A DNA stretch of 64,000 nucleotides, from NCBI RefSeq assembly GCF_003999875.1, contig NZ_RQVJ01000001.1, forward strand, positions 124,001 through 188,000, given 5' to 3'. This document shows positions 14,827-51,382 of this stretch, piece after piece. Made by a program: the position numbers and the translations under genes. Within the stretch, counting starts at the first letter, position 1. Every line of letters begins with the position of its first letter. The notes beneath the pieces were generated by a model that did not search any database, was not told the DNA's origin, and was given only the letters and a program-made list of their open reading frames with translations. This DNA is from Veillonella sp. 3310. GTDB lineage: Bacteria; Bacillota; Negativicutes; Veillonellales; Veillonellaceae.

Positions 14827-14827
14827 T

Positions 14828-16686: not shown

Positions 16687-17372
16687 CACCAGAAGCACGT
16701 GAAGCGATTTTACAAGCAGACCGTGTAGTAGGTTACATTACCTATTTAGATTTGATTAAAGACCTGGTAGCAGACAAAGTAACTGTAGGTACAGGCATGA
16801 TGCAAGAAGTGGATCGATGTCAACAAGCTGTAGACTTAGCTGTAGAAGGTCATAAAGTGGTTGTGGTATCCAGTGGTGACCCTGGAGTATATGGCATGGC
16901 GGGTCTTGTCATCGAATTGGCTAATAAAGTGGCAGAAGAAAAACGTCCTCCTGTACATATCGTACCAGGTTTAAGCGCAGTGAACATGGCAGCAGCTGTG
17001 TTGGGTGCGCCATTGATGCATGACTTCGCCGTGATTAGCTTGAGCGATTTGATGACACCATGGGATTTAATTAAAAAACGTGCCGCACTGTGTGCAGAAG
17101 GTGATATGGTTATCGCTTTATATAATCCACGCAGTAAAAAACGTATCACCCATTTAGATGAAGTACGTGAATTGGTATTGAAACATCGTGACCCTAAAAC
17201 ACCAGTGGGGATCGTACAAAAAGCAGGCCGTGCAGGTCAACATATCATCATTTCTGATTTAGAACATTTCCACAAAGAAGAAATCGATATGCAAACATTA
17301 GTTATCATTGGTAATAGCCAAACATATGTGGAAAATGGTCAAATCATTACACCACGAGGATATAAACTGTGA
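16548..17372 (+). CDS. cbiH: Cobalt-precorrin-3B (C17) methyltransferase CbiH
   Basis: A tetrapyrrole methylase for ring contraction and C-17 methylation. The conserved core begins at G31 (GTLQVIGIGPGNPEFMTPEA). VVVSSGDPGVYGMAG (about 104-118) and VPGLSAVNMAAA follow. Residues 1-30 are a Ser/Thr/Asn-rich extension encoded over the conserved 3' end of cbiG. No ATG, GTG or TTG lies between 16548 and G31 in this frame, and AGGAG precedes 16548, so the long start seems real. It ends in a 4-bp overlap with cbiJ. Confidence 0.92.
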   Translation: MRNDSTITSAGAGATATQNNISENNRSHCTGTLQVIGIGPGNPEFMTPEAREAILQADRVVGYITYLDLIKDLVADKVTVGTGMMQEVDRCQQAVDLAVEGHKVVVVSSGDPGVYGMAGLVIELANKVAEEKRPPVHIVPGLSAVNMAAAVLGAPLMHDFAVISLSDLMTPWDLIKKRAALCAEGDMVIALYNPRSKKRITHLDEVRELVLKHRDPKTPVGIVQKAGRAGQHIIISDLEHFHKEEIDMQTLVIIGNSQTYVENGQIITPRGYKL

Positions 17373-18145
17373 TCTGGGTCATAGCGGGCACATTAGACGG
17401 TCGTAACCTAGCAGTAGCTGTGCAAGAATATACAGGATTACCTGTGTTGGTGTCTGTAGTGAGCCAGTATGGGGCACAATTAGCATCCCATCCGGGCATT
17501 GAGGTGCATGAAGGGCGATTGAACCTAGAAGAGATGAAAGCTCTCATAAAAAATAAAGGTATTACGATGCTTGTCGATGCGAGTCATCCTTATGCAGCGA
17601 TTGTGACAGCTACAGCGCGTGAGGCCGCAGCAGACATGGAGATTCCTTTCATTCGCTTTGAACGTAAAGAAGTGCCATTACCAGCATATGATAAATTACA
17701 TCATGTGAGCAATGAGGAAGAGGCGGCTACTTTAGCAGGTAAGCTAGGTAAGGTAGTATATCTTACAACAGGTAGTAAGACTATGCATGTCTTTGCCAAG
17801 TCAGAGGCTCTACAAGATAAAGAAGTATGGACCCGTGTCTTACCGACGGCAGAAGTTCTACAAATGATGGAAGACTTAGGTGTATCTCCTAAGCATACCA
17901 TTGCTATGCAAGGACCATTTTCTTATGAAATGAATAAGGTAATGTTCCAAGATACTAAAGCAGAGGTAGTTGTGATGAAAAACTCTGGCCTTGTAGGAGG
18001 TTCAGACACAAAGTTACAAGCTGCTATCGATTTAGATGTACATGTCATCGTCATCGATCGCCCAACACCGGCGAAAGGGGCATTGACAATTTCAACAGTA
18101 GAAGAATTTAAAACTCTATGGGAGGATTACGATGGATTACATTAA
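17369..18145 (+). CDS. cbiJ: Cobalt-precorrin-6A reductase CbiJ
   Basis: An NAD(P)H-dependent reductase of the corrin macrocycle (CobK/CbiJ family), 258 residues. It begins IWVIAGTLDGRNLA. VDASHPYA (about 69-76), FIRFER (about 93-98), TTGSKTM and MQGPFS are family motifs. The start is GTG, overlapping the TGA of cbiH as GTGA. The 3' end overlaps the cbiC start by 14 bp. Confidence 0.93.
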   Translation: MIWVIAGTLDGRNLAVAVQEYTGLPVLVSVVSQYGAQLASHPGIEVHEGRLNLEEMKALIKNKGITMLVDASHPYAAIVTATAREAAADMEIPFIRFERKEVPLPAYDKLHHVSNEEEAATLAGKLGKVVYLTTGSKTMHVFAKSEALQDKEVWTRVLPTAEVLQMMEDLGVSPKHTIAMQGPFSYEMNKVMFQDTKAEVVVMKNSGLVGGSDTKLQAAIDLDVHVIVIDRPTPAKGALTISTVEEFKTLWEDYDGLH

Positions 18146-18797
18146 AAACCCGAAAGCAATTGAAGATAAAAGTATGGAAATTATCTATCCTTATGTGAAA
18201 GATATGGGATTTACTGACGATGAAATTCGAGTGGTATCTCGTACGATTCATGCGTCTGGTGACGTAGAATATGCGAAATTATTCCGTACTAGTGAAGGTG
18301 CTGTAGCGGCAGGTATTGCAGCTGTTAACAATGGCGCTCATGTGTACACTGACGTGGAAATGGTGCGCACAGGTATTTCTAAACCAGCATTGAAACTTCA
18401 TAACAGTGAAGCACATTGCTTAATTCGTGATGAAAAAGTAGCAGAAATGGCAAAAGAATTAGGCGTAACACGCTCGATTGCTGCTATGCGTACATTCGGT
18501 AAACAATTAGAAGGCCAAATCGTGGCGATCGGTAATGCACCGACTGCTTTATACGAAGTATTGCGCCTTGCCTTAGAAGAAGGTATTCGTCCGGCTTTAA
18601 TTATTGGTATTCCAGTAGGCTTCGTAGGCGCTGCAGAATCTAAAGATTATTTAGCAGAAGTATCTCCAGTTCCTTATATTACAATCCAAGGTAACAAAGG
18701 TGGTAGCTCCATTGCTGCATCCGTTGTTAATGCATTGTTCTACACAGATGTAAAACGTAATGACATGTTATTTGTAGAAGGAAAAGAAAAGAAATAA
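18132..18797 (+). CDS. cbiC: Cobalt-precorrin-8 methylmutase CbiC
   Basis: Moves the C-11 methyl group to C-12, giving cobyrinate. It has 221 residues. The catalytic histidine lies in the TIHASGDVEYA motif (about residues 37-47), and IGIPVGFVGAAESK (about 158-171) is the second family signature. The operon lacks cbiA, cbiP, cbiB and cbiL; these must be elsewhere. The stop is joined to the permease start as TAATG. Confidence 0.95.
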   Translation: MDYIKNPKAIEDKSMEIIYPYVKDMGFTDDEIRVVSRTIHASGDVEYAKLFRTSEGAVAAGIAAVNNGAHVYTDVEMVRTGISKPALKLHNSEAHCLIRDEKVAEMAKELGVTRSIAAMRTFGKQLEGQIVAIGNAPTALYEVLRLALEEGIRPALIIGIPVGFVGAAESKDYLAEVSPVPYITIQGNKGGSSIAASVVNALFYTDVKRNDMLFVEGKEKK

Positions 18798-19795
18798 TGA
18801 ATAAAACGAGTCAAACACGCAATGCATGGCGTATGTTTCTCGTTCTAGTGTTTGGGGCAGCAGCGATTGCTGCCCTAATCTTATCATTAGTATTTGGGTC
18901 CGCCCAGACTACATTAGCTCAAATTTGGCATACATTGTGGTCTCCCACTTTATCTGATACGAACTCACTAGTCATATGGAACATTCGCTTTCCGAGGAAT
19001 ATAGTAGCCGCTTTAGTAGGCTCAAATCTAGCCGTAGCAGGTGCTATCTTACAGGCAGTAATGAAAAATCCATTAGCAGATCCGCAAATTGTAGGTGTTT
19101 CTTCGGGTGCAGGATTAGCTGGTGTTATAGTATTAATTTTATTTCCCTACCTAGAATATGCAGTGCCGTTTATCGCCTTTATTGGGGCTTTGACAGCGGC
19201 TATTCTGGTGTATGCCTTAGCCTGGAAACAGGGCATACGTCCCAGTCGTATTATCTTGGCAGGTGTGGCAGTGGCTGCATTCTTAGGCTCCATGATATCT
19301 GCTCTTCTCGTGTTCTATGGTGATCGCGTACAAGGGGCTTTATTATGGATGGTAGGTGGTCTTGCCGCCCGCAGTTGGCCACAAGTGTATGTGTTAATTC
19401 CTTATACGATAGGGGGGTTAGTATTTGCATTCTTAGGGGCAAAACGATTGACCATACTCAGCCTAGGTGATGAAACAGCTCGTAGTTTAGGCTTAGCCGT
19501 TGAAAAAACACGATTTATGATGACTGCTGTGGCAGCACTCCTAGCAGCGAGTGCCGTATCAGTAGCGGGCTTGATTGGTTTCGTAGGACTTATCATTCCT
19601 CATATCGCTCGCATGATGTTGGGTACAGATTATCGATTCCTGTTACCAGGATCTGCCTTCTTGGGGGCTTTTGTACTAGTCATTAGCGATACGGTGGGAC
19701 GCACACTGTTTAGTCCTATTGAAATTCCCGTGGGCATTATTATGGCCTTCTTTGGGGCTCCATTCTTCTTATATTTATTGAGGAGGGATGACTAA
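18797..19795 (+). CDS. FecCD/BtuC-family ABC transporter permease
   Basis: An inner-membrane permease of the iron-siderophore/haem/vitamin B12 family, 332 residues with about ten membrane segments. Conserved sites are WNIRFPRNIVAALVGSNLA (about 57-75), AVMKNPLADP-VGVSSGAGL (about 89-108) and GLIGFVGLIIPHIARMMLG (about 258-276). It is coupled by TAATG to both cbiC and the ATPase gene, so it is part of the cbi operon. That context favours cobalamin, cobinamide or a related metal complex, but the family does not define the substrate. Confidence 0.88.
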   Translation: MNKTSQTRNAWRMFLVLVFGAAAIAALILSLVFGSAQTTLAQIWHTLWSPTLSDTNSLVIWNIRFPRNIVAALVGSNLAVAGAILQAVMKNPLADPQIVGVSSGAGLAGVIVLILFPYLEYAVPFIAFIGALTAAILVYALAWKQGIRPSRIILAGVAVAAFLGSMISALLVFYGDRVQGALLWMVGGLAARSWPQVYVLIPYTIGGLVFAFLGAKRLTILSLGDETARSLGLAVEKTRFMMTAVAALLAASAVSVAGLIGFVGLIIPHIARMMLGTDYRFLLPGSAFLGAFVLVISDTVGRTLFSPIEIPVGIIMAFFGAPFFLYLLRRDD

Positions 19796-20568
19796 TGAAA
19801 TCAGTAATTTCTGTGAAAGATTGTCGTGTCTCTTTTGGTGAAAAAGAAGTCTTGAAGGGCATAGATTGGACAGTGTACGAAGGAGAAATTGCTACCTTAA
19901 TTGGTCCGAATGGTTGCGGTAAAAGTACTTTGTTACATGCTATTACCAGCGCTATTAAAAGTACAGGAACTATCCAGATTGCAGGGAAAGCAGCAACAGA
20001 CTATTCTAATAAAGAATTAGCTCGCTATATGGCATTCTTACCACAAGTACCATCTATCCCAAAAGATATGTTGGTCGAAGAACTTGTCAACTGCGGACGT
20101 TTTCCTTATCAATCGTGGTGGAAGCAACAAGGAGCCCATGATAAAGAAGTGGTAGATGCTGCCTTAGAGGCCACACAAGTTAGCCATTTGCGCAATCAAC
20201 TAGTATCTTCCTTATCCGGTGGGGAACGGCAACGTGTATGGATTGCCATGGCGCTAGCACAAGAGCCGAAAGTATTGATTTTAGATGAACCTACTACATA
20301 TTTAGATATAAACCACCAATTGGAGATTATGGAATTATTACAAGACTTAAATCGCCGTGAAGGGTTAACCGTTGTCATGGTTCTTCATGAATTGAATCAG
20401 GCTGCGCAGTATTCCCATCGCATTGGAGTCTTGTACAAAGGAAATATCTTAGCAGATGGATCTCCTAAAGAGGTAATGACAGAAGACTTACTAGAAACAG
20501 TGTTTGCTGTCAAAACAGATGTAGAAGTAGGGGAGTTTCCTTATATACGGATACAGGGGCTATTGTAG
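19795..20568 (+). CDS. ABC transporter ATP-binding protein, BtuD/FecE type
   Basis: The ATPase partner of the preceding permease, 257 residues. Walker A GPNGCGKST is at 37-45. The signature SLSGGERQRV is near 140, Walker B VLILDEPTTYLD near 160, and the switch histidine is in MVLHELNQA. The module lacks an adjacent binding-protein gene on the same strand; the lipoprotein on the minus strand at 21884 is the natural candidate. The stop is followed by a terminator. Confidence 0.9.
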   Translation: MKSVISVKDCRVSFGEKEVLKGIDWTVYEGEIATLIGPNGCGKSTLLHAITSAIKSTGTIQIAGKAATDYSNKELARYMAFLPQVPSIPKDMLVEELVNCGRFPYQSWWKQQGAHDKEVVDAALEATQVSHLRNQLVSSLSGGERQRVWIAMALAQEPKVLILDEPTTYLDINHQLEIMELLQDLNRREGLTVVMVLHELNQAAQYSHRIGVLYKGNILADGSPKEVMTEDLLETVFAVKTDVEVGEFPYIRIQGLL

Positions 20569-20814: not shown

Positions 20815-21666
20815 TTGTCAAAGATTAAAAAAGAAATGATTGAAGTAAAAGGATTTGAAATACAAATTTACACAGAAGATTTTAAAAATGATTATATTAG
20901 TCTTACAGATATCGCAAGATATAAAAACAAGGAAGAACCTAATGTTGTTGTTGCAAATTGGATGAGAAATTTTAATACCATCGAATATTTAGGAATTTGG
21001 GAGAAGTTAAATAATCCAGAATTTAACCCCCTCGAATTCGAGGGGTTTTTAAAAGAAGCAGGTAGTAATGCCTTTACATTATCTCCACAGAAATGGGCAA
21101 CGACTACAAATGCCAAAGGCTTATTTGTAAAAGTTGGTAGAGGTGGTGGTACGTTCGCACATAAAGATATTGCTTTTAAATTCGCTTCTTGGATCTCAGC
21201 TGAATTTGAACTTTATATCATTAAAGATTACCAAAGACTAAAAGAAGATGAAACTTCAAAATTATCACTCACTTGGAATTTACATCGTGAAATATCAAAA
21301 ATAAACTATAAAATTCATACTGATGCTATTCAAATATATTTACTAAATGATTTAACGGACAGTCAGTTAGGTTATAAATATGCAAGTGAAGCAGATATGT
21401 TAAATGTTTCCTTATTTGATAAAACGGCTAAACAGTGGCGAGATGAAAATAAAAACTTAAAAGGTAATATGAGAGATTATGCAAGTTTAAATGAATTATT
21501 AGTTTTAGCCAATATGGAAAGCTACAATGCAATTCTCATTGAGAAAGGTTTAGAACAAAAAGAAAGAATGATAGAACTAAGAAAGCTTGCAAGAAATCAA
21601 ATGTTATCACTTGAAAAATTAAATAATACAGGAATAAAAAGATTAGGAGATAAGTCAAAGAAGTAG
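20815..21666 (+). CDS. KilA-N domain protein
   Basis: A 283-residue protein with an N-terminal KilA-N DNA-binding domain (about residues 10-145). Visible features are YISLTDIARYKN, the SPQKWATTTNAKGLFVKVGRGGGTFAHKDIAFKFASWIS core and KDYQRLKEDE. The C-terminal half is helical and charged. KilA-N proteins occur in phages and mobile elements and as isolated chromosomal genes; function is usually unknown. The start is TTG at 20815, supported by AAGGAG about 10 nt upstream; an ATG at 20836 is the alternative. It is more AT-rich than its neighbours. No integrase or phage genes flank it. The coding region contains a terminator-like palindrome at 21028-21050. Confidence 0.85.
   Translation: MSKIKKEMIEVKGFEIQIYTEDFKNDYISLTDIARYKNKEEPNVVVANWMRNFNTIEYLGIWEKLNNPEFNPLEFEGFLKEAGSNAFTLSPQKWATTTNAKGLFVKVGRGGGTFAHKDIAFKFASWISAEFELYIIKDYQRLKEDETSKLSLTWNLHREISKINYKIHTDAIQIYLLNDLTDSQLGYKYASEADMLNVSLFDKTAKQWRDENKNLKGNMRDYASLNELLVLANMESYNAILIEKGLEQKERMIELRKLARNQMLSLEKLNNTGIKRLGDKSKK
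21028..21050 (+). other. Terminator-like palindrome inside the KilA-N gene
   Basis: A perfect 18-bp palindrome CCCCTCGAATTCGAGGGG at 21028-21045 is followed by TTTTT. As RNA it would fold as a 7-bp, mostly G:C stem with an AAUU loop and a U-tract, the form of an intrinsic terminator. It falls about 75 codons into the gene. Confidence 0.7.
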
Positions 21667-21883: not shown

Positions 21884-22828
21884 TTATAATTGTACTTTCA
21901 CACCATAGATAATATTAACTAATTCAGCCATAGCTTCTGGTGTTTCTAGTCCTGGATTCAATAGAAACCATTGGGATGGTAAGAAAACAACTTTGTCATT
22001 TTTCACAGCTTGTAATTGATTCCAAGCTGGATTGCTAGTCATTTCTTTGGCAAAGGTTGCATTGATTTCATCCTTTTTACCCATGGTAACCACAAGAATG
22101 ATATCAGGGTTGTCTACGGTTAATGTTTCTAAGGAATATGGTACTGTTTTAGATGTTACATTGTCTTTCAAATGTTGTTCTACTACATTGGTGATGCCTA
22201 ATTCACGAACCATAGATGCCGTGATTGCTAGTGGAGTTTCTGCTGTTACCGATTTACCAGTAGCTCGTAATACAGCAACTTTGACTGGTTTGTCTTTTGG
22301 AATCGAGGCTTTCACTGTATCGATTTTTTTATTGTAATCTTCGATGACAGATTTGGCCTTGTCTTCTGTATGGAAAATATTGCCCAATAATGTTAATAGT
22401 GGAATGTTATCATTGATGCCATCGTAATTAATTAGAATAGATGGAATATTGTTGCTATCTAGCTGCCCTTTAAATTTTTCATGTTGGCTAGGTAAACCAA
22501 ATACTAAATCAGGATGTAATCCTACTAATTGTTCCATATTAGGATTGGCTGTATGGCCTATGCTTGGTAATGATTCAATTTCACTAGGTAATTTTTCGTT
22601 ACTTTCAACACGAGCGATGGCTTTGCCACCTACAGCATAGATCATTTTAGAGATGGAATTAGATAATGCTACAACTTTAGATGGGTTAGCAGGTATTGTA
22701 TAGGACTGATCTTGATAAGAGACTGTGCGAGTTGTTTCTGTTGTAGTAGGACCTGTTTTTGCGCATCCACCTAGTAACAAAGAAGTGGAGAGTAGAACAG
22801 CACTACAAATTTTTAAATATGTTTTCAT
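21884..22828 (-). CDS. ABC transporter substrate-binding lipoprotein (iron/haem/cobalamin type)
   Basis: A type III (TroA/BtuF-like) binding protein, 314 residues. The signal peptide ends in a lipobox L-G-G-C with the lipidated Cys at 22, so it is anchored in the envelope. Two lobes are joined by a long helix (about 155-185). The motifs PSKVVALSNSISKMIYAVG and NMEQLVGLHPDLVFG are typical. It lies 74 bp downstream of the secreted CbiK gene on the same strand and is a plausible partner of the FecCD/ATPase pair at 18797-20568. The ligand could be corrinoid, haem or another chelate; sequence alone does not decide. Confidence 0.88.
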   Translation of the reverse strand: MKTYLKICSAVLLSTSLLLGGCAKTGPTTTETTRTVSYQDQSYTIPANPSKVVALSNSISKMIYAVGGKAIARVESNEKLPSEIESLPSIGHTANPNMEQLVGLHPDLVFGLPSQHEKFKGQLDSNNIPSILINYDGINDNIPLLTLLGNIFHTEDKAKSVIEDYNKKIDTVKASIPKDKPVKVAVLRATGKSVTAETPLAITASMVRELGITNVVEQHLKDNVTSKTVPYSLETLTVDNPDIILVVTMGKKDEINATFAKEMTSNPAWNQLQAVKNDKVVFLPSQWFLLNPGLETPEAMAELVNIIYGVKVQL

Positions 22829-22902: not shown

Positions 22903-23898
22903 TTATTTTACTAATGCATCATATGCTTCGGAAGCACGTTCAGCAAAGATATCACGGATTAGTTGGTTTTCACCAGCACCATGGATGTAAGTATCTACAG
23001 TGAAGCCTTCTTTCATAAGGATGCTTTTGTGTGAATCAGGTTCGTCACCAGCCATGTCGTTGTTTGCATGGTCACCAGCCACCATCATTAATGGCATTAA
23101 TGTAACGTGTTTGATACCTTTTTCTTTCAATTGAGGGATTACTGTTTCAAGGTTTGGCCATCCTTCAACTGTGTAAAGGTATGTATTTTGGAATCCCATG
23201 GAATCGATACGATCTTGGATTACTGCATAGTACGCATTAGATGGATCTGGAGTACCATGAGCCATGATCAATACAGCAGAATCTTTTGTTTGGATCATAG
23301 GGAATTGGGAAGAGTATGCTTTTAATGCTTGTTCAATATCATCGCGTTGTTCTTCTTGGCCCATCCAGTACATTAAAGGTAAACCTAATGTCATTTTTTT
23401 GAAATCTTGTTTATGATGGTTGAATACAGCACCAGCATAGTTATATTCCATGCCTGGAATCATATTTAATGTTGTTAAAGCAACACGAGTGTATCCATCA
23501 GCTTTTAATTGGTCTAATGCTTCTTCTGGAGTAGGGTATGTAATACCTTCATGGGCTTTAATGCGATCAATAATAATATGGGATGTAAAAGCAGTTACAA
23601 CTTTAACATTTGGATGTTGTGCTTTGATTTCATTGATAGTAGCATCAATTGTTTTTGCACGAGTATCTTTGAAAGTAGTGCCAAAGGACATAACTACGAT
23701 AGCATCTTTATTCATTGCGTTTTTCATCATTGGATTTTCATATGTGCGAACACCAATGGAAGCAGCTTCTTGTAATGCTGGAGTTGCATCTTTTACTTCA
23801 GAGTTTAACATGTACGCCGCATCAGTAGATTGAGAAACGCCGAAAGCTGCAGTTACTGCTAATGCCGCAATCATAGCGCTTTTAGAAAAGAATTTCAT
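22903..23898 (-). CDS. cbiK: Secreted (periplasmic) CbiK-family cobaltochelatase
   Basis: A class II chelatase of the sirohydrochlorin cobaltochelatase family. It has 331 residues, about 65 longer than enteric CbiK, mainly because of an N-terminal signal peptide (hydrophobic core about 8-21, cleavage near 27) and linker. The fold starts VVMSFGTTFKDTR. The two conserved catalytic/metal histidines are present: H214 in AHGTPDPSNAYY and H277 in PLMMVAGDHANNDMAGDE. Cytoplasmic CbiK inserts Co2+ into sirohydrochlorin. Exported forms are known in Desulfovibrio (CbiK-P), where a role in haem or metal handling was proposed. It has a consensus promoter and lies divergent from the giant receptors. Confidence 0.9.
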   Translation of the reverse strand: MKFFSKSAMIAALAVTAAFGVSQSTDAAYMLNSEVKDATPALQEAASIGVRTYENPMMKNAMNKDAIVVMSFGTTFKDTRAKTIDATINEIKAQHPNVKVVTAFTSHIIIDRIKAHEGITYPTPEEALDQLKADGYTRVALTTLNMIPGMEYNYAGAVFNHHKQDFKKMTLGLPLMYWMGQEEQRDDIEQALKAYSSQFPMIQTKDSAVLIMAHGTPDPSNAYYAVIQDRIDSMGFQNTYLYTVEGWPNLETVIPQLKEKGIKHVTLMPLMMVAGDHANNDMAGDEPDSHKSILMKEGFTVDTYIHGAGENQLIRDIFAERASEAYDALVK

Positions 23899-24215: not shown

Positions 24216-27200
24216 ATGCATTATTCTAAGCCGTATCAGAAACGTTTACTTACTGGTGCAGTCATGAGTTGGATGGCTTGTTCTTGGTATCTACTTGGTG
24301 GATTAGCACCTGTACAGGCAGAAGGATCTGTGTTTGTTACAGCAGACCGTGCACAAGAAGAAGCAAAATATAACTCTCAACAAGTGCAAATCATTACTAA
24401 AAAAGATATTGAACAAAAACAGGCTAAATCTGTGGAAGATATTGTATTTACACAAGCTGGTGTAAGTCGTACAGTGGACAGCATGGGTCGTGTCGGTGTA
24501 TCGATTCGTGGTGCTGAACCTCGTCATACATTAATTCTTGTAGATGGGCAGCCAGTGATGGGTGAATTTGCAAAATACCAAGGTCAAGGTGATGAATTAC
24601 AACGACTAGGTACAGAAAATGTAGAACGTATAGAAATTATCCAAGGCGCTGCGAGTGCAAAATATGGATCCGATGCTATTGGTGGTGTTATCAATGTAAT
24701 TACGAATAAACCAAATAAAAATGCAAATATCCGTATCAATGGTGAAAGCATTCGTTCCCGTGGCGATCAAGGTTTGTTCCCATATAGTAACTTCTTTATG
24801 CGTGCTGACTCTGGTCAACAAGGTAAATTACGTGTCAATATTCATGGTAGTAAACGTGATATCGTTCCTGTATATGCTGCGAGGGAAAGAAAAGAAGTTC
24901 CATTTGGAAATTCTACTGTCAATGAACAGTTTCCTAAAAACTCCCTAAGATATTATGGGACAAACTCCAATTTAGGATTGTCTGCAATTTATGATGTGAA
25001 TCAAAATAATTCGTTTACCTTTACAACAGACCGTTATAACGAAGATTTAGAACGTTTTGTAAAACGTACAAACTCCGAAGATGAACCACAAGTTCATTAC
25101 AAACGTGATTTAGATAGAAATAAAAGTAACCTTTCCTATGCAGGACAAGATGAAAAAAGCAATTGGAAGGTTGAATTAAACTATACTCGTACAAAAGAAG
25201 ATGATGTAACCTTAACAAGTGAGTATGGTCGTAGTAATTATGAAGGTAAAAACACATTGAACTATGTGGACAATGTGGACCATAAACAATGGAGCTTTAA
25301 TATCACTGGAGACACTCAAGCCAACGATAATCACTTGCTTTCTTATGGTTTTGGATATACTACTGAAAGTGGCGAAGGTAGCCGTCTAAAAAGTGCACCT
25401 CATACATGGGTTAGAAACATTGATCCATGGGACTATGATAAAAGTTTAGCTGTAAAACATGGTAAACCAGAGAGTACAATCTATCGTCATTCTTTCAAAG
25501 AAAATGAAGAAGGCGTATTACGTTGGGATAAAGAAAAAGAGTGGTATGGTTATGATCATACAGATAAAACAAGTATACCAGAATTTACCTATGAAGATTT
25601 CAAAAACTATCTTGACCCAGAAGCAGGATTAGATCCAGCTGCATTCCATGGACTTGTGTATAACTCTGGATATACACCAAACAATATGGAATCCCGTAAC
25701 CCAGAAGCATTGAAACGATTCAAGGCATTTAATGATAAATTAAATGAAATTCCGTACAATAAAGAACTGATTGCTAAATATGGACCAGGTCATCAAGGTA
25801 CTGAAACCATTGATGGGGTCAAACCACCTGTAATAAATAAAGATTATTTAGCTTTATTCTATTACATGGAAGATCCGTCTTTCAAAATTGTACGACCTCA
25901 ATTTAATGGCGGTCATTTCAAAGATGAATACAATAAACGCATTAACCAACAAACCATGGGTAGTGCAAGATTACGGAAACAGCACTTCTTCTTGCAAGAC
26001 ACATGGCAAATCAACAAAGATACTTTGTTACAACCAATTGTACGTTTAGATCATAGTGATTTATTTGGGTCTCATATGACTTTCAATATGGGTGTTACAC
26101 ACAATGTCAATGGGAATGCACATCGTCGGTTGAAAGCCAATGTTGGTACTAGTTATACAGAGCCAGGTATGGGTGAATTATACTATAACTGGGAAATGTT
26201 TGGACCTACGGTAACGAATGTGGCTCCATTGTCTGGTGGACGTGCTCGTTTAGGTTGGTATTGGATTGGCAACCCAACATTAAAACCTGAAAAGTCGAAA
26301 AATATAGATATTTCCTTTGAAGGAGAAAATAAAAATACCTATATGAAATTGACGGCTTTCCGCAATCAAATTCGCAACTATATGACCATTGCTAATACTG
26401 GACATTTAATGGATTTCTATCCATATCTTGATGAAAGCACTTATTTCGGAGCTACAAAATATGCGCATGCACCAGATATGCTTTATACATTCCGCAATAT
26501 CGGAAAAGCTCGTGTCAATGGTATTGAACTAGAAGTGAAACAACGGTTGAATGACCATGCGAAATTGAAAGTAGGTTATACATATTTAGATGCAGTGAAT
26601 AAAACGAATCCAGATATGCCAAAACGATTGTTGGACAAACCAATGCATAAACTCGATTTAGGATTGGAGTTAGAAGATAAAGTAAGTGGCTGGAGTGGCA
26701 ATATTTGGACTGATTACTATTATGGTATGTTAGATAGTAACTCTGTTGCTGGCGGTGGTAACTATATTACATCACAAGTAAATCCAGAAAATAACGATAA
26801 GTCTATTATCACCTACGAGTTCAATACGAAAAAAACAGCGGATATGTACAAGAAGAAAACCTATGGTATTTGGAATATGATTGTACAGAAAAAAATCGAT
26901 AAAGATTCCCTTGTTTACTTTGGCATGAACAACCTATTCAACCATCGTGATGATGATCGTGCTCTACAAGGACGTCAGTTCCGATTTGGTATGAACTTAA
27001 AATTTGGTTCCGATGGTTCTAGTACTTCTAAACATACTGATGCGAAGGCTGTAGCAATGAATGGAACAACTCCAATCACAGAACATGGTGTATCTAAAGC
27101 TCAAGAAGCTCTAACGCCGTCAGTATTAGAATCTCAATTTGACCAAAATCGAGAAAAAGGGGCTACTGTGGTAGGAGATATCCGCTTTGGTGGTGACAGT

Positions 27201-29372
27201 CACTTAGGCAGTGATAGACCAGCAAACCGTGTGACAGCAGTAAGTTCAATTAGTGATGGAGCATTGAAAAACTTACAAGATAAAAATGAACATGGCTTCC
27301 ATAGTCACTTACGCTTAGGTGTGGATGCTCGTGTGGGCGATCATACGAATGTAAAAGTAGTAGCTACAGCACAAGGTCAAGAAGGCGTCGATGCATCGCA
27401 TGTCACAACAGGGTCTAAAGGACTTTCTCATAGCCGTTTAGAAACAATAGATGTCACAAACCATCATGCTAAATGGGATTTCAGTGTCGGTCGATTGACT
27501 GAGAAATTTGGTATGACCGGCTATTGGTTTAATAAGGAATTTGATGGACTACGCAGTGTTTGGACTAGCGATAAAGATCAAGTGCGTATTGGTTATGGTG
27601 ATTTCCGTCATAGTACAGGCATTGAAGATTCTGCATACACCCATGCAATTTTTACTAAATTCAAACGTCCTCCAACTGTTGATGAATTCGTAGGAACAAC
27701 TTTTGATTACACGGGTCTTTCTGAAGAAGAGAAAAAATTAGTAGGTGGTGCGAAAGTTGAAAAAGTAGTGAAAGATGCACCAAATACGATTAACTTCTAT
27801 CAACAGCTGAAAGCTTTACAAGGAGATTACAAAACCTTAAGCGAGAAAAAAGAAACATTTACTAGCGATATAGCTACATTAAAAGAAGACATGGACAACG
27901 AATATATTGCCGATACTCCAGAAAAGAAAGAGCAATACAGAAAAGATATCGAGGCAAAAACAAAAGAACTTGAAGAAGTTACTACGAAACTAGACGCCAA
28001 TATCGATGCTCAATATGGTGTAGTATCTCGTATGCAAGAGATTGCACTTAAAGCCTATGGACATGATAAAGGATTTAAAAAATATAATGTAGCTAAAAAA
28101 GCAGAAGAAGAAATCACGATTCCAATTAAGATGCCAGAAATAACTTATAGACTAACTGGTAAAGAAAAAAGCTATAAGTATGATGATGATGGAGAACTAG
28201 TATATGGACCTGATGATCAACCTGTAGTGGATGGGCCAGATAAGGAAAGTTCCTTTACTAAAGCAATCAGTCCGAGTGGTGCAAACCTACGTAACCCTAT
28301 CTTTAAATTAAAATTAACTGATATGAAAGTTCTGGGAAATAATAAAAAAGAATTTTTAAAAGAATGGTTTAAAACGAATAAAGAAGCAATCCTAAAAGGT
28401 TATCAAGAACAAGCAGAAGCTATTGCTAAAAACTCATTTAATGCAGGGGTAGTAAAAGTTGAGGCAGAGAGTAGCTTGTTAGATAACATAGGTGATAAAC
28501 TTTATGAAATGAATTATCTTGCTATCGGTACTCCTGGTGAATCAGCCATTGCTAAAACATATGAATCAGGTATGTATCCATATCTTGTAGCGCAATATTT
28601 CAATGAAATCGTAAGTGCCTTAGAAGAGACAGATGGACATAGTAAGTTACCACGAGAAGCTTTCATTCCATACACTGGAGCTATCATTCCAGCAGAAGGT
28701 ATTGTATTACAACGTGATGTCATTCCACCGATTAAACGAGCGGGCTATGTACAGTTACGCCATATGGTAGGTCAACAATTAGGCTTGACTGCTTGGTACT
28801 TGCGTTCCATGGGTAATGATACAAACACAGTACAATTTGCTAGTGGCTTAGGTACATCAAGTACAACTTTCAAAGGTGTCGCTAATGTAGTCGGTATTGG
28901 AGCAAAATATAGTACAGGTAATGCATCCGTATCCATTGATTACGGTCAAAATAGAACTGATTTTGGACGGTATATGAATGGACGCACCGTGTATAACTAT
29001 GTTCCAGGTAGTATCAACTTCACACCAACTGGCCGTGCTATGGGTGGAAATCCAAGCTTCTGGGTAGTACGTTTTGATATTGGTAAATCTGATTATAAAC
29101 GTGCAGGTAGTTGGAATGGTTTCATCGATTATAAACGATTTGATCATGGTTCCTTCTTTGGTGGCAATGGTAGCGGTTCTGTACTAGATCGTTACTTAGA
29201 TGGTATTAGTAGCTTTACTGTTGGTGGCGGCTATGTTCCACGTAAAGACTTATTATTAGAAGCATTCTACACATTTGATGCAAAAGCGACTGGACAACGT
29301 GATACATTATATGGTGGAGAAAACTTTAAATTAGGAAATTATACAAGAATCCAAGGAACGTATAAATTCTAA
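24216..29372 (+). CDS. Giant TonB-dependent receptor fused to a C-terminal porin-like barrel (1)
   Basis: A single 1718-residue frame. Signal peptide 1-35 (cleavage after VQA) is followed by a probable TonB box VFVTA (39-43). The plug domain (about 50-170) has SIRGAEPRHTLILVDGQP and ERIEIIQGAASAKYGSDAIGG. A TonB-receptor barrel follows to about residue 930, ending FRFGMNLKFG like a normal receptor C-terminus. After a linker (about 930-985), a second beta-rich domain starts (GDIRFGGDSH) and runs to the terminal Phe (NYTRIQGTYKF). It resembles Veillonella-type porins (GVDARVGDHTNVKV, FSVGRLTEKFGMTGYWF). This domain is interrupted by a mainly helical insertion (about 1147-1499) with a charged coiled-coil stretch near 1185-1275. 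Ordinary TonB receptors are 600-1000 residues. Substrate unknown; the neighbouring cbiK and binding lipoprotein suggest a metal or tetrapyrrole. Confidence 0.85.
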   Translation: MHYSKPYQKRLLTGAVMSWMACSWYLLGGLAPVQAEGSVFVTADRAQEEAKYNSQQVQIITKKDIEQKQAKSVEDIVFTQAGVSRTVDSMGRVGVSIRGAEPRHTLILVDGQPVMGEFAKYQGQGDELQRLGTENVERIEIIQGAASAKYGSDAIGGVINVITNKPNKNANIRINGESIRSRGDQGLFPYSNFFMRADSGQQGKLRVNIHGSKRDIVPVYAARERKEVPFGNSTVNEQFPKNSLRYYGTNSNLGLSAIYDVNQNNSFTFTTDRYNEDLERFVKRTNSEDEPQVHYKRDLDRNKSNLSYAGQDEKSNWKVELNYTRTKEDDVTLTSEYGRSNYEGKNTLNYVDNVDHKQWSFNITGDTQANDNHLLSYGFGYTTESGEGSRLKSAPHTWVRNIDPWDYDKSLAVKHGKPESTIYRHSFKENEEGVLRWDKEKEWYGYDHTDKTSIPEFTYEDFKNYLDPEAGLDPAAFHGLVYNSGYTPNNMESRNPEALKRFKAFNDKLNEIPYNKELIAKYGPGHQGTETIDGVKPPVINKDYLALFYYMEDPSFKIVRPQFNGGHFKDEYNKRINQQTMGSARLRKQHFFLQDTWQINKDTLLQPIVRLDHSDLFGSHMTFNMGVTHNVNGNAHRRLKANVGTSYTEPGMGELYYNWEMFGPTVTNVAPLSGGRARLGWYWIGNPTLKPEKSKNIDISFEGENKNTYMKLTAFRNQIRNYMTIANTGHLMDFYPYLDESTYFGATKYAHAPDMLYTFRNIGKARVNGIELEVKQRLNDHAKLKVGYTYLDAVNKTNPDMPKRLLDKPMHKLDLGLELEDKVSGWSGNIWTDYYYGMLDSNSVAGGGNYITSQVNPENNDKSIITYEFNTKKTADMYKKKTYGIWNMIVQKKIDKDSLVYFGMNNLFNHRDDDRALQGRQFRFGMNLKFGSDGSSTSKHTDAKAVAMNGTTPITEHGVSKAQEALTPSVLESQFDQNREKGATVVGDIRFGGDSHLGSDRPANRVTAVSSISDGALKNLQDKNEHGFHSHLRLGVDARVGDHTNVKVVATAQGQEGVDASHVTTGSKGLSHSRLETIDVTNHHAKWDFSVGRLTEKFGMTGYWFNKEFDGLRSVWTSDKDQVRIGYGDFRHSTGIEDSAYTHAIFTKFKRPPTVDEFVGTTFDYTGLSEEEKKLVGGAKVEKVVKDAPNTINFYQQLKALQGDYKTLSEKKETFTSDIATLKEDMDNEYIADTPEKKEQYRKDIEAKTKELEEVTTKLDANIDAQYGVVSRMQEIALKAYGHDKGFKKYNVAKKAEEEITIPIKMPEITYRLTGKEKSYKYDDDGELVYGPDDQPVVDGPDKESSFTKAISPSGANLRNPIFKLKLTDMKVLGNNKKEFLKEWFKTNKEAILKGYQEQAEAIAKNSFNAGVVKVEAESSLLDNIGDKLYEMNYLAIGTPGESAIAKTYESGMYPYLVAQYFNEIVSALEETDGHSKLPREAFIPYTGAIIPAEGIVLQRDVIPPIKRAGYVQLRHMVGQQLGLTAWYLRSMGNDTNTVQFASGLGTSSTTFKGVANVVGIGAKYSTGNASVSIDYGQNRTDFGRYMNGRTVYNYVPGSINFTPTGRAMGGNPSFWVVRFDIGKSDYKRAGSWNGFIDYKRFDHGSFFGGNGSGSVLDRYLDGISSFTVGGGYVPRKDLLLEAFYTFDAKATGQRDTLYGGENFKLGNYTRIQGTYKF

Positions 29373-29420
29373 TATTATCTTATTCTATACATCCATGATG
29401 TAATGTAAAAGATTATTTTT

Positions 29421-29463
29421 AATGCCTAATGAGTGCGTATTTAGTTCTCATTAGGCATTTTAT
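29421..29463 (+). terminator. Terminator after first giant receptor
   Basis: A perfect 13-bp stem AATGCCTAATGAG/CTCATTAGGCATT (29421-29433 with 29447-29459) with 13-nt loop and short T-tract. Confidence 0.85.
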
Positions 29464-29675
29464 GTATTGACACTCATGTGATCTTAAAATAGGAAAGACT
29501 ATAATACTCTTTAATGGATCACCTTAAAAGAGTGTGTAATGGTTATACGTATATAGGCATACTTACATGTACCCTTTTTTGAGCGATAGAAATATATATT
29601 AATAAACCTAATTTATATACGTATCACATTATCAAAATGAGAAATATTTACAAAAAATATAACTAAATGGGCTAA

Positions 29676-29703
29676 TTGAAAACATTTCGGAGTGGATTTG
29701 ATA
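29676..29703 (+). promoter_or_regulatory. 28-nt element shared by both giant-receptor promoters (copy 2)
   Basis: It begins TTGAAA and contains GGAGTGGATTTGATA, and aligns without gaps to 24114-24141 (21 of 28 identical). TATAAA at 29714-29719 is the likely -10, 10 nt downstream. Confidence 0.55.
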
Positions 29704-29731
29704 GATAAATTAGTATAAAATTAAAGCAAAA

Positions 29732-29746
29732 TGATATTTTTTGTCA
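29732..29746 (+). promoter_or_regulatory. Fur-like palindrome at second receptor promoter
   Basis: TGATATTTTTTGTCA matches 11 of 14 defined positions of the Fur 7-1-7 consensus. As at the first receptor, it lies just downstream of the -10. It is weaker than copy 1, but the matching position is the stronger argument. Confidence 0.4.
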
Positions 29747-29795
29747 TTTGTGTTATTATTTGTGTTAAGTTTTTTGTATGTAGGAGTAGATTGCA

Positions 29796-32700
29796 ATGAC
29801 GACAAATCGTAGAAAGCAACAGAAATACTTCATGATATCATGTGCGATTGCTACATGGATAGCGCTACCAGGTTTAATGTATTCTAACTCAGTACAAGCT
29901 GAGGGGGCTGTATATGTTACAGCTGATAGAGCTCATGAAGAGGCTAAATATAACTCACAACAAGTGAGCATTATTACTAAAAAGGATATTGAACAAAAAC
30001 AAGCTAAATCAGTAGAAGATATCATTTTCACTGAAAGCGGTGTATCAAAAACTGTGGACTCCATGGGTCGTGTAGGAGTGTCCATTCGTGGTGCAGAAGC
30101 ACGTCATACTTTGATCTTAGTGGATGGTCAAGCCGTACTAGGCGACTTGGCTAAATTTAGTGGCGCAGCGGATGAAGTAATGCGCCTTGGTACGGAAAAT
30201 GTAGAACGTATTGAAATTGTTCAAGGATCTGCCAGTGCGAAATATGGTTCTGATGCTATTGGTGGTGTAGTTAATATCATCACTAAAAAAGCGGCTAAAA
30301 AACCAACTATCCAAATCAATGGTGAAGGATCTCGTGCAAAAGGTGGAGAAACTGGCTATGGTAATACTAATTTCTTCTTGCGTGCCGATTCTGGACAAAT
30401 GGGCAAAGTTCGTGTAGCCATCTCCGGTAGTAAACGAGATGTAATGCCTGTACTTGGTACGAAAGCTCGTAGAGACACTGGAGATACATTGGAAGGCGAT
30501 TTTAAGCCTAATGCACTTCGTTATTATGGAACTACTGATGATATAGGGTTTAATGCTACTTATGATATTAATCAAAATCATAACATTCAACTGCGTTTAG
30601 ATCGTTTTACAGAAGATTTAGTACGGGATGTTAAGAATACAACTTCACCAATGGAGCCACAACGTCATTTTAAACGAGACAGTAATCGTAATACGATGAA
30701 TGCAATTTGGAATGGAAGAAGTGGAGTTAGTGACTGGAAATTAGAGTTAAATCATTCTCGCATTAATGAAAATGATGTATCTTTAGTTGATTATTCTGGT
30801 CGGTCCAAATACGAAGGTAAAAATGAATTAAAATATATAGATGATATTGATCATCGTCAAACTGATATTCGTTTCAATGCAAACTCTGCTATTGGGGATA
30901 AGCATACACTTAGTTGGGGTTTTGCAAATACAAAGGAAACTGGATCGGGAAGTCGCCTAAAGAACTCTCCTATTACACGTACAAAATATATCGATCCATT
31001 TAATTATTCTAAAGATTTGTTAGTTGCAGGTGTAGATCGATTACAGAGAAAAGCCGGTGATAATAGTCTACGTGTTTGGTCTCATGTTCATGATTTTAAA
31101 ATTTCCTTTGATAAAAATAATAAGCCATTTTATGACCAAAATTATGAATATTATGGATCTAAAAATTCTGATGAGGAACCAGATATTACCTATGAAGATT
31201 ATTTAAAATATGATCTTGATAAATATTCGTTTATAGATCCAGATGAAAATCCAGAGTTTAATGAAAGATATGCGAAAAATGGTGTTACCAAAGATGTTTT
31301 TGACAGAATTGTATCTTTCACAAGAAAGCTAAAAAAGGAAAATACCGGCGATGAATTCAGTAGGGACTACTATTTATATCGAAGTTATTTCCAAAAAGGT
31401 GAAAGTTTAGATCCAAAAATTCATGAAAAAGCACCTACATTTAATGGCGTTAAATTTTTAGATAAATATAGAGAAAGAGATCAACGTGTTACTGAAGGTG
31501 AAGGCAGTATTAGAAAACAAAACTTTTATTTATCTGATTCATGGCAAGTGAATAAAGATTTATTAGTACAACCAACTATTCGTTTTGATAAGAGTAGTTT
31601 ATTTGGGTCACATGTATCTTGGAATTTAGGTGCCACATATAATGTGAATTCTAACGCACATCGTAGATTAAAAGCTAATATTGGTACGGGTTACGCTGAG
31701 CCAGGTATGGGTGAATTGTGGTATAGTTGGCAGATGTTTGACTCTACGCCTTTAGGTGTTGGTTATTCAAAAATGGGTTGGTATTGGATCGGTAACCCGA
31801 ACCTAAAACCAGAAACTTCTAGAAATATAGATTTAAGTTTTGAAGGTGAAGGAAAAAATGACTATGCACGAATAGGTCTATTCCAAAACCGCATTCATAA
31901 TTACATGAGCGTTTATTTTACAGGTAGTCTACTTGACTGGGCGCCACGATTATCAAAAGATGATAAATGGATGCGAGCTCCAGATTTAGTATATAGCTTT
32001 AAAAATATAGGCAAAGCACAGATTACGGGGCTTCAATTAGAATGGAAACATAAATTTGGTTCTAAATGGAGCTCACGGTTTGGGCTCACTCGTTTACAGG
32101 CTTTAAATAAATCTGATCCAACTATGCCTAGACACTTGCTAGATCGACCTACAAATAAAATTGATTTTGGTGTAACATTTGAAACAAATAAGTGGAATGC
32201 TCAGGTTTGGGCCGATTATTATCATAAAATGTTAGATAGTAATACCTTAGAAGGTAAATCTAATTATTGGAATGGATCTATTGACTCTGATAGTAGAATT
32301 TTCAACAAAACTAATATCTACGAAGAAAAATCTTATGGCATTTGGAATGCTATGGTTCAACGTAAATTCGACAAAGACTCTATCGTATATTTTGGTGTCA
32401 ATAATATATTTAATCATCGTGATGATGATAGAGCGACACAAGCTCGCGTATATCGTTTTGGTGTAAACCTCAAATTTGGTGCAGGTGGAGATAGTAAAGC
32501 TCAAGATGCGAAGGTGCAAAATCCTGTATTAACAAATGGTATAAATGGTACAACTCCTATTACAAAAGTTCATGTAGATAAAGCTATAGCTACTGTGAAT
32601 GGCGATGATATGGGACGTGAGCATCAATTCTTAGAAAGACCATTTGATGCTAAGAAAGAAAAAGGAATTGAATTTATTGGTGACTATCGAGCACGTTTAA

Positions 32701-35036
32701 TGGCACATGATGGTTCTGAGCATGCACAATCTTTATATACAAGTTCAGCTTATGTAGATACTGGAGCATATAACTTTAAAGATAATGCTGAACATGGTCT
32801 TGAACAACGCATTCGTTTTGGTGTGGATGCTAAAATTAATGATCATACTAATGTGAAAGTTCTTGCTAGTGCAAGCGGAAATCATTCAGTTGATACAGCT
32901 AGTACGACTGTACATTCTAAAGGTTTAAACAAACAACGACTAGATGCTTTAGATGTTACAAGTTCTGGTGGACGTTGGGACTTTTCAGTAGGTCGATTAT
33001 CAGAAAAAATGGGTACAACTGGATATTGGTTTAATAAAACATTTGATGGTTTGCGTGCAGTTTGGACAGATCAACGGAATCAATTCCGTGCAGGAGTAGG
33101 TTCTTTTAAATCTAGTACTGGTATTACGGACTCCGCTTATAATCATAGCGAATATGATACATTCTTTAGAGCTCCTACTATGGAAGAGTTTATTGGTTTA
33201 TACACTTCTTTATTTAATAACACATCCGGTGCAATGTACAAGAGTGGAAAGGATGCGGATGGAACACCTATTAAAGAGGTAGATGGACAAAAAGTTCCGA
33301 GTGAAGGTTCTGCTATGGATATATATCGTAAGCTTTATAAAGGGAAGAATAATAATATTTACTTTATGGAACAATTAAGTGAAGTAGATAGAGATATGGC
33401 AACTGCATCCGAAGAAGAAAGAAATGCTAAAAAGATTGAAATTATTCGACATATGGGTGAAATTCTTGGTAAAGCATATCCAGATTTACTAAATAATAGG
33501 AACATTGCCTACAGTCTTGCAAAAGAACCAGATAGTGTAAAAGTAATTTATGAATTAGAAGATGAATCTGGAAATAAAGTATATTTAAAAACTCCATTAG
33601 ATACATACAGTCCATATATTGGAAATCCTGCATTAATGAAAAAAGAAATGATTGACATTAATGTTAGAGAAAAAACAGAGGTAAATAAAAAATTTGCTAA
33701 GCCATTATCTGATTTAGCTTTGTTAGACGCTAATTATATTGATGCACATAGAAAAGAATTGGAAGAAGGATATATTGCGGCTGCCAATTGGGTTGCTAAA
33801 AATAATTGGTATGATTTATATGTTTATGATAAAGAAGCCAAAAATAAACAGCTAAATGCAAAAGGCGAGTATGGAAATTTTGACTATGAGGTGTATAAGC
33901 TAGAAAATGGCGAGTATAAACAACTTTCTGAAGCTGAACAAGATGCATTAACGACACCGATACCAAAATATAAATTTAATGGTATGAAAAAAATCTTCAA
34001 GGAAGAATATGATAGAACGCTTTATAAATCAGTAATGAAAGATGTAGATATTATTGGAGTGTTGAAAGAAGCGAACTTTAATACAACTGAGGATGCAGAT
34101 TACGCTGAAGGAAGATTACCTAAAATTGCTAAACAATATCTGGTGGATTTAAAATCTGCAGTGCAAGACTCAGAAACTGGAAACACTTTACCGAGAGAAG
34201 CCTTAGAAAAAGTAATTGGAAAACCAATTCAAGTAACTGGATTAACGTTGCAACGAGATACAATTCCAGCTATTGATAAAGCAATTTTTGCACAATACAA
34301 AACAAAACTTAATAATAAATTAGGAGTTCAAGCATGGTTTTTACATTCCTTAAATGATAAAAATGTTGATTTTAAATCAGGCTTTATGGAAGCGGAGAAA
34401 AAAACAATCCGAGTACAAACTGGTACTGGACCAGTAAAGTATGATGAAGATGGATTTGAAATACCAGGCGATCCTATTTATGAAGATAAAACTATTGAAG
34501 TTACAAATCCTATCAATCATACTTATACGTCTAACAAATTAGCAAATGTATTCGCTGTTGGTCTACAGTATCAATTAGGTAATTCTGCATTGTTATCCGT
34601 AGACTACGGTCAAAACCGCACTGACTTTGGTCGTTACATGAATGGTCATACAAATTACGAACACACACCAGGTACTGCTGATTTCAGATTAAAAGGTCAC
34701 TCCATGGGCGGCACTCCACACTTCTGGACAGCTCGTCTTGATCTTGGACAATCTGATTTCACAAGACCTGGTAGCTGGAATGCCTTTGTGGATTACAAAT
34801 ACTTCGCTCACGGTTCCTTCTTCGGTGGTAATGGCACTGGTGCAGTACCAGATCGCTACTTAGATGGTATCCGTAGCTTTACATTGGGTGGTGGCTATGT
34901 TCCTCGCAAAGACTTCTTGGTAGAAGCATTCTACACATTCGATGCAAAAGGTATTGGACAACGTGATACTTTATACGGTGGAGAAAACTTTAAATTAGGT
35001 AACTACACTCGCATTCAAGGTACTTACAAGTTCTAA
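29796..35036 (+). CDS. Giant TonB-dependent receptor fused to a C-terminal porin-like barrel (2)
   Basis: A 1746-residue paralogue of the preceding gene with the same architecture. Signal peptide 1-35 is followed by probable TonB box VYVTA (39-43) and plug (about 50-170, SIRGAEARHTLILVDGQ, GSASAKYGSDAIGG). The first barrel ends near residue 893 (YRFGVNLKFG). The linker leads to a porin-like domain from about 957 (FIGDYRARLMAHDG) to the terminal Phe, with a helical insertion at about 1121-1485. Similarity to the first receptor is very high in the plug and in the last 130 residues, and low in the outer loops and the insertion. The middle of the gene is visibly more AT-rich than its last 500 bp. 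A hairpin lies about 100 bp after the stop. Confidence 0.85.
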   Translation: MTTNRRKQQKYFMISCAIATWIALPGLMYSNSVQAEGAVYVTADRAHEEAKYNSQQVSIITKKDIEQKQAKSVEDIIFTESGVSKTVDSMGRVGVSIRGAEARHTLILVDGQAVLGDLAKFSGAADEVMRLGTENVERIEIVQGSASAKYGSDAIGGVVNIITKKAAKKPTIQINGEGSRAKGGETGYGNTNFFLRADSGQMGKVRVAISGSKRDVMPVLGTKARRDTGDTLEGDFKPNALRYYGTTDDIGFNATYDINQNHNIQLRLDRFTEDLVRDVKNTTSPMEPQRHFKRDSNRNTMNAIWNGRSGVSDWKLELNHSRINENDVSLVDYSGRSKYEGKNELKYIDDIDHRQTDIRFNANSAIGDKHTLSWGFANTKETGSGSRLKNSPITRTKYIDPFNYSKDLLVAGVDRLQRKAGDNSLRVWSHVHDFKISFDKNNKPFYDQNYEYYGSKNSDEEPDITYEDYLKYDLDKYSFIDPDENPEFNERYAKNGVTKDVFDRIVSFTRKLKKENTGDEFSRDYYLYRSYFQKGESLDPKIHEKAPTFNGVKFLDKYRERDQRVTEGEGSIRKQNFYLSDSWQVNKDLLVQPTIRFDKSSLFGSHVSWNLGATYNVNSNAHRRLKANIGTGYAEPGMGELWYSWQMFDSTPLGVGYSKMGWYWIGNPNLKPETSRNIDLSFEGEGKNDYARIGLFQNRIHNYMSVYFTGSLLDWAPRLSKDDKWMRAPDLVYSFKNIGKAQITGLQLEWKHKFGSKWSSRFGLTRLQALNKSDPTMPRHLLDRPTNKIDFGVTFETNKWNAQVWADYYHKMLDSNTLEGKSNYWNGSIDSDSRIFNKTNIYEEKSYGIWNAMVQRKFDKDSIVYFGVNNIFNHRDDDRATQARVYRFGVNLKFGAGGDSKAQDAKVQNPVLTNGINGTTPITKVHVDKAIATVNGDDMGREHQFLERPFDAKKEKGIEFIGDYRARLMAHDGSEHAQSLYTSSAYVDTGAYNFKDNAEHGLEQRIRFGVDAKINDHTNVKVLASASGNHSVDTASTTVHSKGLNKQRLDALDVTSSGGRWDFSVGRLSEKMGTTGYWFNKTFDGLRAVWTDQRNQFRAGVGSFKSSTGITDSAYNHSEYDTFFRAPTMEEFIGLYTSLFNNTSGAMYKSGKDADGTPIKEVDGQKVPSEGSAMDIYRKLYKGKNNNIYFMEQLSEVDRDMATASEEERNAKKIEIIRHMGEILGKAYPDLLNNRNIAYSLAKEPDSVKVIYELEDESGNKVYLKTPLDTYSPYIGNPALMKKEMIDINVREKTEVNKKFAKPLSDLALLDANYIDAHRKELEEGYIAAANWVAKNNWYDLYVYDKEAKNKQLNAKGEYGNFDYEVYKLENGEYKQLSEAEQDALTTPIPKYKFNGMKKIFKEEYDRTLYKSVMKDVDIIGVLKEANFNTTEDADYAEGRLPKIAKQYLVDLKSAVQDSETGNTLPREALEKVIGKPIQVTGLTLQRDTIPAIDKAIFAQYKTKLNNKLGVQAWFLHSLNDKNVDFKSGFMEAEKKTIRVQTGTGPVKYDEDGFEIPGDPIYEDKTIEVTNPINHTYTSNKLANVFAVGLQYQLGNSALLSVDYGQNRTDFGRYMNGHTNYEHTPGTADFRLKGHSMGGTPHFWTARLDLGQSDFTRPGSWNAFVDYKYFAHGSFFGGNGTGAVPDRYLDGIRSFTLGGGYVPRKDFLVEAFYTFDAKGIGQRDTLYGGENFKLGNYTRIQGTYKF

Positions 35037-51256: not shown

Positions 51257-51280
51257 ATAAGTAAGTAAATATTTTAGATT

Positions 51281-51374: not shown

Positions 51375-51382
51375 CATATGTG

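Follow-up and report, generated by a model that had tools for sequence, protein, structure and literature searches.

The stretch of DNA analysed here, referred to as the window, comprises 64,000 nucleotides of Veillonella sp. 3310 (contig NZ_RQVJ01000001.1, positions 124,001 to 188,000) and carries on its plus strand two tandem genes, each encoding a TonB-dependent receptor (TBDR) fused to an OmpM-type porin. An ORF check of the window showed gene A (24216-29372, 1718 aa) and gene B (29796-35036, 1746 aa) to be intact open frames, in agreement with the original prediction of a single frame of more than 1700 codons per gene. The assignment of A is supported additionally by Pfam and by intact full-length homologues, and that of B by Pfam and by a tree that places it on a separate paralogue branch. 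The two proteins align end to end over their full length at 41.6% identity and share the C-terminus ...YTRIQGTYKF. The order along both chains is signal peptide, plug, 22-strand TBDR barrel, linker and 16-strand barrel. The signal peptide of A (aa 1-36, 24216-24323) has a predicted helix at aa 7-25 and an A-x-A-like end (...VQA); no second signal peptide was seen further along the chain. No riboswitch was found 5' of the gene pair, the only one in the window being a distant TPP riboswitch (51274-51382, 71.5 bits), and a promoter/terminator scan gave signals no better than those of shuffled sequence.

The first part of each protein is a complete TBDR. In A, a putative TonB box (SVFVTADRAQEE) and the plug occupy aa 37-168 (24324-24719; PF07715 E 2.7e-22) and the barrel aa 169-929 (24720-27002; PF00593 E 2.6e-36), whereas in B plug and barrel together extend over aa 37-893 (29904-32474), as mapped via the full alignment. 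Both Pfam models score above cut-off in both genes. PF07715 matches aa 54-158 in A and B alike, and PF00593 is matched to its last position (436/436), the match ending at aa 907 in A and aa 871 in B and the final TBDR strand at aa 929 and approximately aa 893, respectively. Modelled alone with AF2 (pLDDT 81), the TBDR half of A forms a plug and a complete barrel of 22 strands, with a surface loop of ~185 aa at aa 391-575. Foldseek places this model nearest to PfeA, PirA, Cir, FepA and BtuB (E 1e-36), and the nearest sequence matches are of the CirA type (CirA E ~1e-41). The putative TonB box reads VFVTAD or VYVTAD in A- and B-like copies, with looser V-x-V-x-A variants elsewhere. The motif NP-x-L-[KQR]-PE is present in 43 of 46 full-length copies of the fusion, NP-x-L being common among other TBDRs. 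None of the 46 has the FRAP box known from classical haem receptors, and the haem-receptor NCBIfam models TIGR01785 and TIGR01786 reach 103-125 bits against cut-offs of 317-324.

Behind the end of the PF00593 match each protein continues for about 800-850 residues. These include a linker (A, aa 930-981, 27003-27158, periplasmic by AF2; B, aa 894-956, 32475-32663, mapped via the full alignment), which is 38-70 aa long among 45 homologues, poorly conserved, and mostly predicted by AF2 to be disordered or of low confidence. The second part gave no match in a whole-protein Pfam search; when it was used as a query by itself, Porin_5 (PF16930) exceeded its curated threshold for A and B alike (26.8 bits in B, cut-off 22), and Porin_5 is matched by 43 of 48 homologous C-terminal halves. 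When these halves were aligned by hhalign with OmpM and related porins from the same genome and from other Negativicutes, the end of the barrel matched OmpM with 97% probability (E 3e-11) and its start with 89% (E 2e-6), compared to 0.2% for the TBDR half. The alignment skips ~300 profile columns, located between OmpM positions 299 and 311. In the AF2 model of the C-terminal half of A (mean pLDDT 82.7) there are 16 membrane strands and, between strands 7 and 8, an insert in extracellular loop L4 made mostly of long helices. Strands 1-7, including L3 (aa 1099-1104), correspond to aa 982-1130 (27159-27605), the insert to aa 1131-1507 (27606-28736), and strands 8-16, including L7 (aa 1643-1663) and the C-terminal Phe, to aa 1508-1718 (28737-29369). 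The equivalent porin of B covers aa 957-1746 (32664-35033), with its loop-4 insert at ~33108-34277. The insert is ~375 aa long and ranges from 247 to 397 aa in all 46 members. The best PDB fold matches of the C-terminal model are four chains of V. parvula OmpM1 (E 1.9e-13, target TM 0.77), and searching the PDB sequences with a profile of the C-terminal half returned nothing meaningful.

The Pfam match, the profile match to the genome's own OmpM and the fold match identify the second barrel as a porin of the OmpM type. It is not an OmpM as such, since the SLH tether is absent: neither gene has a Pfam match to an SLH domain and an SLH-like motif occurs in 0 of the 46 copies. The TBDR occupies the place of the SLH/coiled-coil tether of OmpM. 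The earlier description of this part as porin-like is correct but can be refined, since the loop-4 insert makes up about half of its length and sets it apart from an ordinary porin. The kinship to OmpM, the loop-4 domain and the haem context discussed below are additions to the original prediction. Its central claim, that a second and separate barrel comes after a complete TBDR, is borne out by the profile and fold searches and by both structure predictions.

A single giant barrel of 38 strands was considered as a candidate and rejected, nothing having been found in its favour. Predicted separately, as had been proposed, the halves each close alone, one into 22 strands with a plug and the other into 16 strands matching OmpM1. 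The mostly disordered linker of variable length also argues against one very large barrel, which is thus very improbable. The topology is consistent with two barrels, the end of the last TBDR strand and the start of the first porin strand both being periplasmic. With the halves modelled separately, two complete barrels lie within one chain, as in multi-barrel proteins. Two-barrel outer-membrane proteins are already known. According to PMC11494523, which cites Solan et al. 2021 (PNAS), GfcD likewise has two beta-barrels per chain joined via the periplasm, but these are of 12 and 13 strands and serve polysaccharide export, in contrast to the plugged, TonB-driven 22-strand barrel and 16-strand OmpM porin of the fusion.

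The fusion can also be set against the single-barrel relatives of each half. TBDRs of the CirA/PfeA/FepA/BtuB type share the plug, the 22-strand barrel and a TonB-box-like N-terminus, but end at strand 22, whereas the fusion continues into a second barrel. OmpM (the SLH-porin; V. parvula OmpM1, PDB 8byt/8bym) shares the 16-strand barrel and the Porin_5 family, but has an SLH domain and coiled-coil stalk where the fusion has a TBDR, and a loop 4 of ~20 aa where the fusion has a mostly helical domain of ~375 aa. No description of a TBDR fused to a porin of the OmpM type was found in the open PMC literature, and an earlier listing in the 2021 survey is possible. Two-barrel proteins being known, the combination of a TBDR with an OmpM-type porin is a new variant of them.

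Of the 28 family genomes searched with the C-terminal half, 20 gave matches at E <= 0.001, as did 68 of the 250 from the class; the weakest of these matches are probably other porins. In a phylum-wide sample of 398 genomes matches occurred in only three, all of the same class. A scan of GTDB contigs identified 66 loci, all in Negativicutes (Veillonella, Megasphaera, Colibacter, Anaeroglobus, Selenomonas, Centipeda and a Sporomusaceae MAG). At every intact locus the porin lies in frame behind a full TBDR, giving 44 full-length genes, or 46 with A and B, which span seven groups of Negativicutes. The arrangement, previously called rare, is so across bacteria as a whole, but it is common within part of the Negativicutes. 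No unfused porin half was found in the 250 Negativicutes genomes, the GTDB contigs or the 398 phylum-wide genomes. Short frames of 806, 811 and 1104 aa were examined as possible lone porins and proved to be frameshifted copies starting inside the TBDR. When the TBDR half was searched, all matches at or above 47% identity were fused or broken fused copies; the next were unfused receptors at 33-34% identity, and at E <= 1e-40 these distant matches numbered only two.

Trees of the two halves are largely congruent (distance correlation 0.956; 31 of 43 splits shared). Three pairs of splits conflict strongly, all involving one clade of the porin tree (the oral B-type copies), and are read as tree uncertainty. 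On the simplest reading, the halves fused once, in an ancestor that these Negativicutes share, and the gene was later duplicated and in places lost. A and B belong to old branches distinct from each other, and their order is retained in V. parvula, strain SKV38 of which carries a tandem pair of fusion genes.

Since the 44 intact homologues elsewhere keep the in-frame order, chance or sequencing error is excluded as the origin of the fusion. The wider notion of an accident, be it read-through, assembly error or a decaying gene, draws on broken copies in Megasphaera cerevisiae, Anaeroglobus, Colibacter and Selenomonas, and exceptions to the intact fusion do exist as frameshifted, truncated or stop-broken copies. 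Their breaks, however, are scattered over many places, none of them showing a clean split between TBDR and porin at the junction, and 46 intact full-length copies from independent genomes, the congruent trees and the conserved barrels leave an accident vanishingly improbable. The original prediction, which took the fusion to be selected rather than read through and proposed looking for unfused halves and for a stop at the junction in relatives, is thereby upheld.

Among the broken copies, five from Colibacter, Megasphaera, Centipeda and Anaeroglobus (L051:3963-3969, L053, L054, L056 and L052) contain single frameshifts or stops at differing places. Only one of these breaks lies in a homopolymer (a G7 tract), and slippage, decay and sequencing error are all compatible with them. 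Phase variation was considered and rejected as the cause, the other breaks having no such tract and the positions differing. Megasphaera cerevisiae DSM 20462 has at least 22 contigs with fusion copies (L078, L082-L084, L086, L090, L096, L097, L099-L101, L105, L108, L109, L112-L114 and L121-L125), few of them intact and several shortened or chimeric; in L096, TBDR position ~397 is joined to the start of the porin. These copies could be a silent cassette store for recombination or could reflect decay of repeats at contig ends.

Conservation, taken as the mean frequency of the majority residue in the 46 full-length sequences (effective number 28), differs along the protein. The plug is the most conserved large region (0.82); the values are 0.59-0.66 for the TBDR barrel, 0.62-0.66 for the porin barrel, 0.31 for the linker and 0.30 for the loop-4 insert. 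Within the porin, L3 (motif TGYWF) reaches 0.92 and L7 (motif HGSFFGGNGT...DRYLDG) 0.85, versus ~0.64 for the porin barrel; both loops are aromatic-rich and far more conserved than those of OmpM, for whose relatives the values are 0.56 for L3, 0.44 for L7 and 0.48 for the barrel, a rough yardstick from a smaller and differently sampled set. The eyelet of OmpM1 is built from L3 and L7 (PMC10628300). Because the same two loops are nearly invariant here, the lumen of the fused porin is under strong constraint, and the second barrel, for which the original prediction had left channel or anchor open, is therefore probably more than an anchor. The fast-varying loop-4 insert is as expected of a surface-exposed domain that contacts ligand or is exposed to immunity, and its variability is too high to indicate one conserved ligand.

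Near-invariant eyelet loops would be needless if the second barrel served solely as an OmpM-type scaffold, a trimerising or anchoring unit that clusters TBDRs without transport. The missing SLH tether also speaks against such a scaffold, even though the porin half descends from OmpM, OmpM1 forms trimers (PMC10628300) and the long flexible linker is suitable for tethering; a purely structural role is considered rather unlikely. A working selective channel alongside the receptor, passing e.g. a small ligand, counter-ion or stripped product, would make use of L3 and L7, strongly conserved and aromatic-rich by comparison with OmpM relatives, and the pore of OmpM1 itself, which conducts nutrients, narrows to ~3.7 A (PMC10628300). 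Inward-facing conserved loops could equally shut the pore, however, and the loop-4 domain may cap it. A conducting second barrel is regarded as possible but less likely than not.

The neighbourhoods of the fusion genes differ between genomes. Divergent from gene A lies a CbiK-type chelatase with a signal-peptide-like N-terminus (22903-23898, minus strand; PF06180 E 1.4e-80), which five related Veillonella likewise have next to the pair; the enzyme is probably periplasmic and, next to the receptors, of interest for the handling of haem or tetrapyrroles. Beyond it is an IsdE-like periplasmic binding lipoprotein (21884-22828, minus strand), for which IsdE is the best NCBIfam match, below the cut-off of that model; an IsdE-like lipoprotein accompanies the pair in five close relatives as well. 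A run of cobalamin biosynthesis genes (12528-20568: CbiD, CbiE, CbiF, CbiG, precorrin-6A reductase and a CbiC-type precorrin-8X methylmutase) ends in a BtuC/Fec-type permease and an ATPase, the whole lying ~4-12 kb upstream of the pair. A stand-alone, phage-like KilA-N ORF with a TTG start (20815-21666) is situated between these ABC genes and the IsdE-like gene. No HutW was found beside the gene pair in the window.

In eight oral Veillonella species (parvula, caviae, rogosae, tobetsuensis, atypica, denticariosi, infantium and sp. T11011-6) the fusion follows an AraC-type regulator and precedes, on the same strand, genes for ExbB, ExbD, a TonB-like protein, a BilS-like (HmuF-like) flavodoxin and HutW. 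The label oral is a loose one, V. caviae being an animal species. The same energiser and haem genes are found in the Sporomusaceae MAG, there immediately upstream of the fusion. HutW, of anaerobic haem degradation, is above the equivalog cut-off (TIGR04107) in both V. parvula and this MAG. Haem genes are absent within about 10 kb of many Selenomonas and Megasphaera copies. A haem uptake operon in V. atypica and V. dispar, with HmuR among the cluster products, is described by McGregor et al. (PMC10404700), and in V. atypica the receptor within the haem uptake cluster is the TBDR-porin fusion. The fusion resembles the HmuR haem receptors and hmu/hut clusters of that paper in that exbB, exbD, tonB, a flavodoxin and HmuW/HutW follow the receptor gene in V. 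atypica and relatives, but differs from HmuR in having a porin and no FRAP box; the available text of PMC10404700 mentions neither a fused porin nor a missing FRAP box. It is likely that the receptor used for haem by oral Veillonella is the fusion protein.

The association with ExbB-ExbD-TonB, a BilS/HmuF-like flavodoxin and HutW in the oral species and the MAG makes haem uptake the most probable function of the fusion, and haem or a related metallo-tetrapyrrole is regarded as the fairly probable substrate. Counting against haem are the lacking FRAP box, the missed cut-offs of the haem models and nearest folds that are catecholate-siderophore and B12 receptors. The surroundings of the window pair, with cobalamin-biosynthesis genes, CbiK and the IsdE-like gene in place of HutW, count against it too, as do the many Selenomonas and Megasphaera copies that lack haem genes nearby. 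The same two-barrel protein could instead take up a siderophore or corrinoid, at least in the case of the window pair: CirA, PfeA, PirA, FepA and BtuB are the nearest matches by sequence and fold, the cobalamin cluster with its permease and ATPase is close upstream, and A and B lie on different paralogue branches, so that their ligands may differ. Set against this are the single-copy branch of oral Veillonella, which sits in a cluster for haem uptake and degradation, and the signal-peptide CbiK beside the IsdE-like protein, which also fits tetrapyrrole or haem handling. A siderophore or corrinoid substrate is a minority reading, possible for A and B.

Under the preferred assignment to haem, the TBDR half would import haem or a related metallo-tetrapyrrole using energy from TonB-ExbB-ExbD. 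The porin barrel would act as a partner holding the loop-4 domain beside the mouth of the receptor, an arrangement proposed by analogy from halves modelled separately. The analogy is with surface lipoprotein lids on other TBDRs (e.g. the B12 complexes 8bmx and 8p98), where a surface domain is placed near the mouth of a TBDR; in the fusion, in contrast to those complexes, the extra domain would belong to a covalently joined second barrel. The porin barrel may trimerise in the manner of OmpM, which would cluster the receptors, and its constricted lumen would have a function, whether as a selective channel of narrow bore or as a pore that is kept closed by design. As a whole, a single-chain, two-barrel outer-membrane haem receptor encoded by each gene, with the porin barrel as a built-in partner, is considered somewhat more probable than otherwise. 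A more elaborate form, in which one covalent machine combines a TonB-driven haem TBDR with an OmpM-derived half whose fixed L3/L7 eyelet and large surface domain serve to capture haemoproteins of the host and/or to conduct a second solute needed for uptake, the trimer placing three receptors around a porin core, is speculative and rather doubtful.

The fusion signifies that a lineage of gut and mouth bacteria has permanently joined an energy-driven receptor to a porin from the family of its own outer-membrane-tethering protein. Work on the porins of V. parvula considers four OmpM and two small 10-strand barrels (PMC10628300), an inventory to which the two OmpM-type barrels inside receptor genes of SKV38 can be added. 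What purpose a second barrel serves for a TBDR is now directly testable in this tractable strain. A further Porin_5 arrangement occurs in a close relative, where a frame of 1045 aa (G003:C18:13941-18458, minus strand) has two widely spaced Porin_5 matches; it may be two OmpM fused together or a single OmpM-like gene that carries a large insert.
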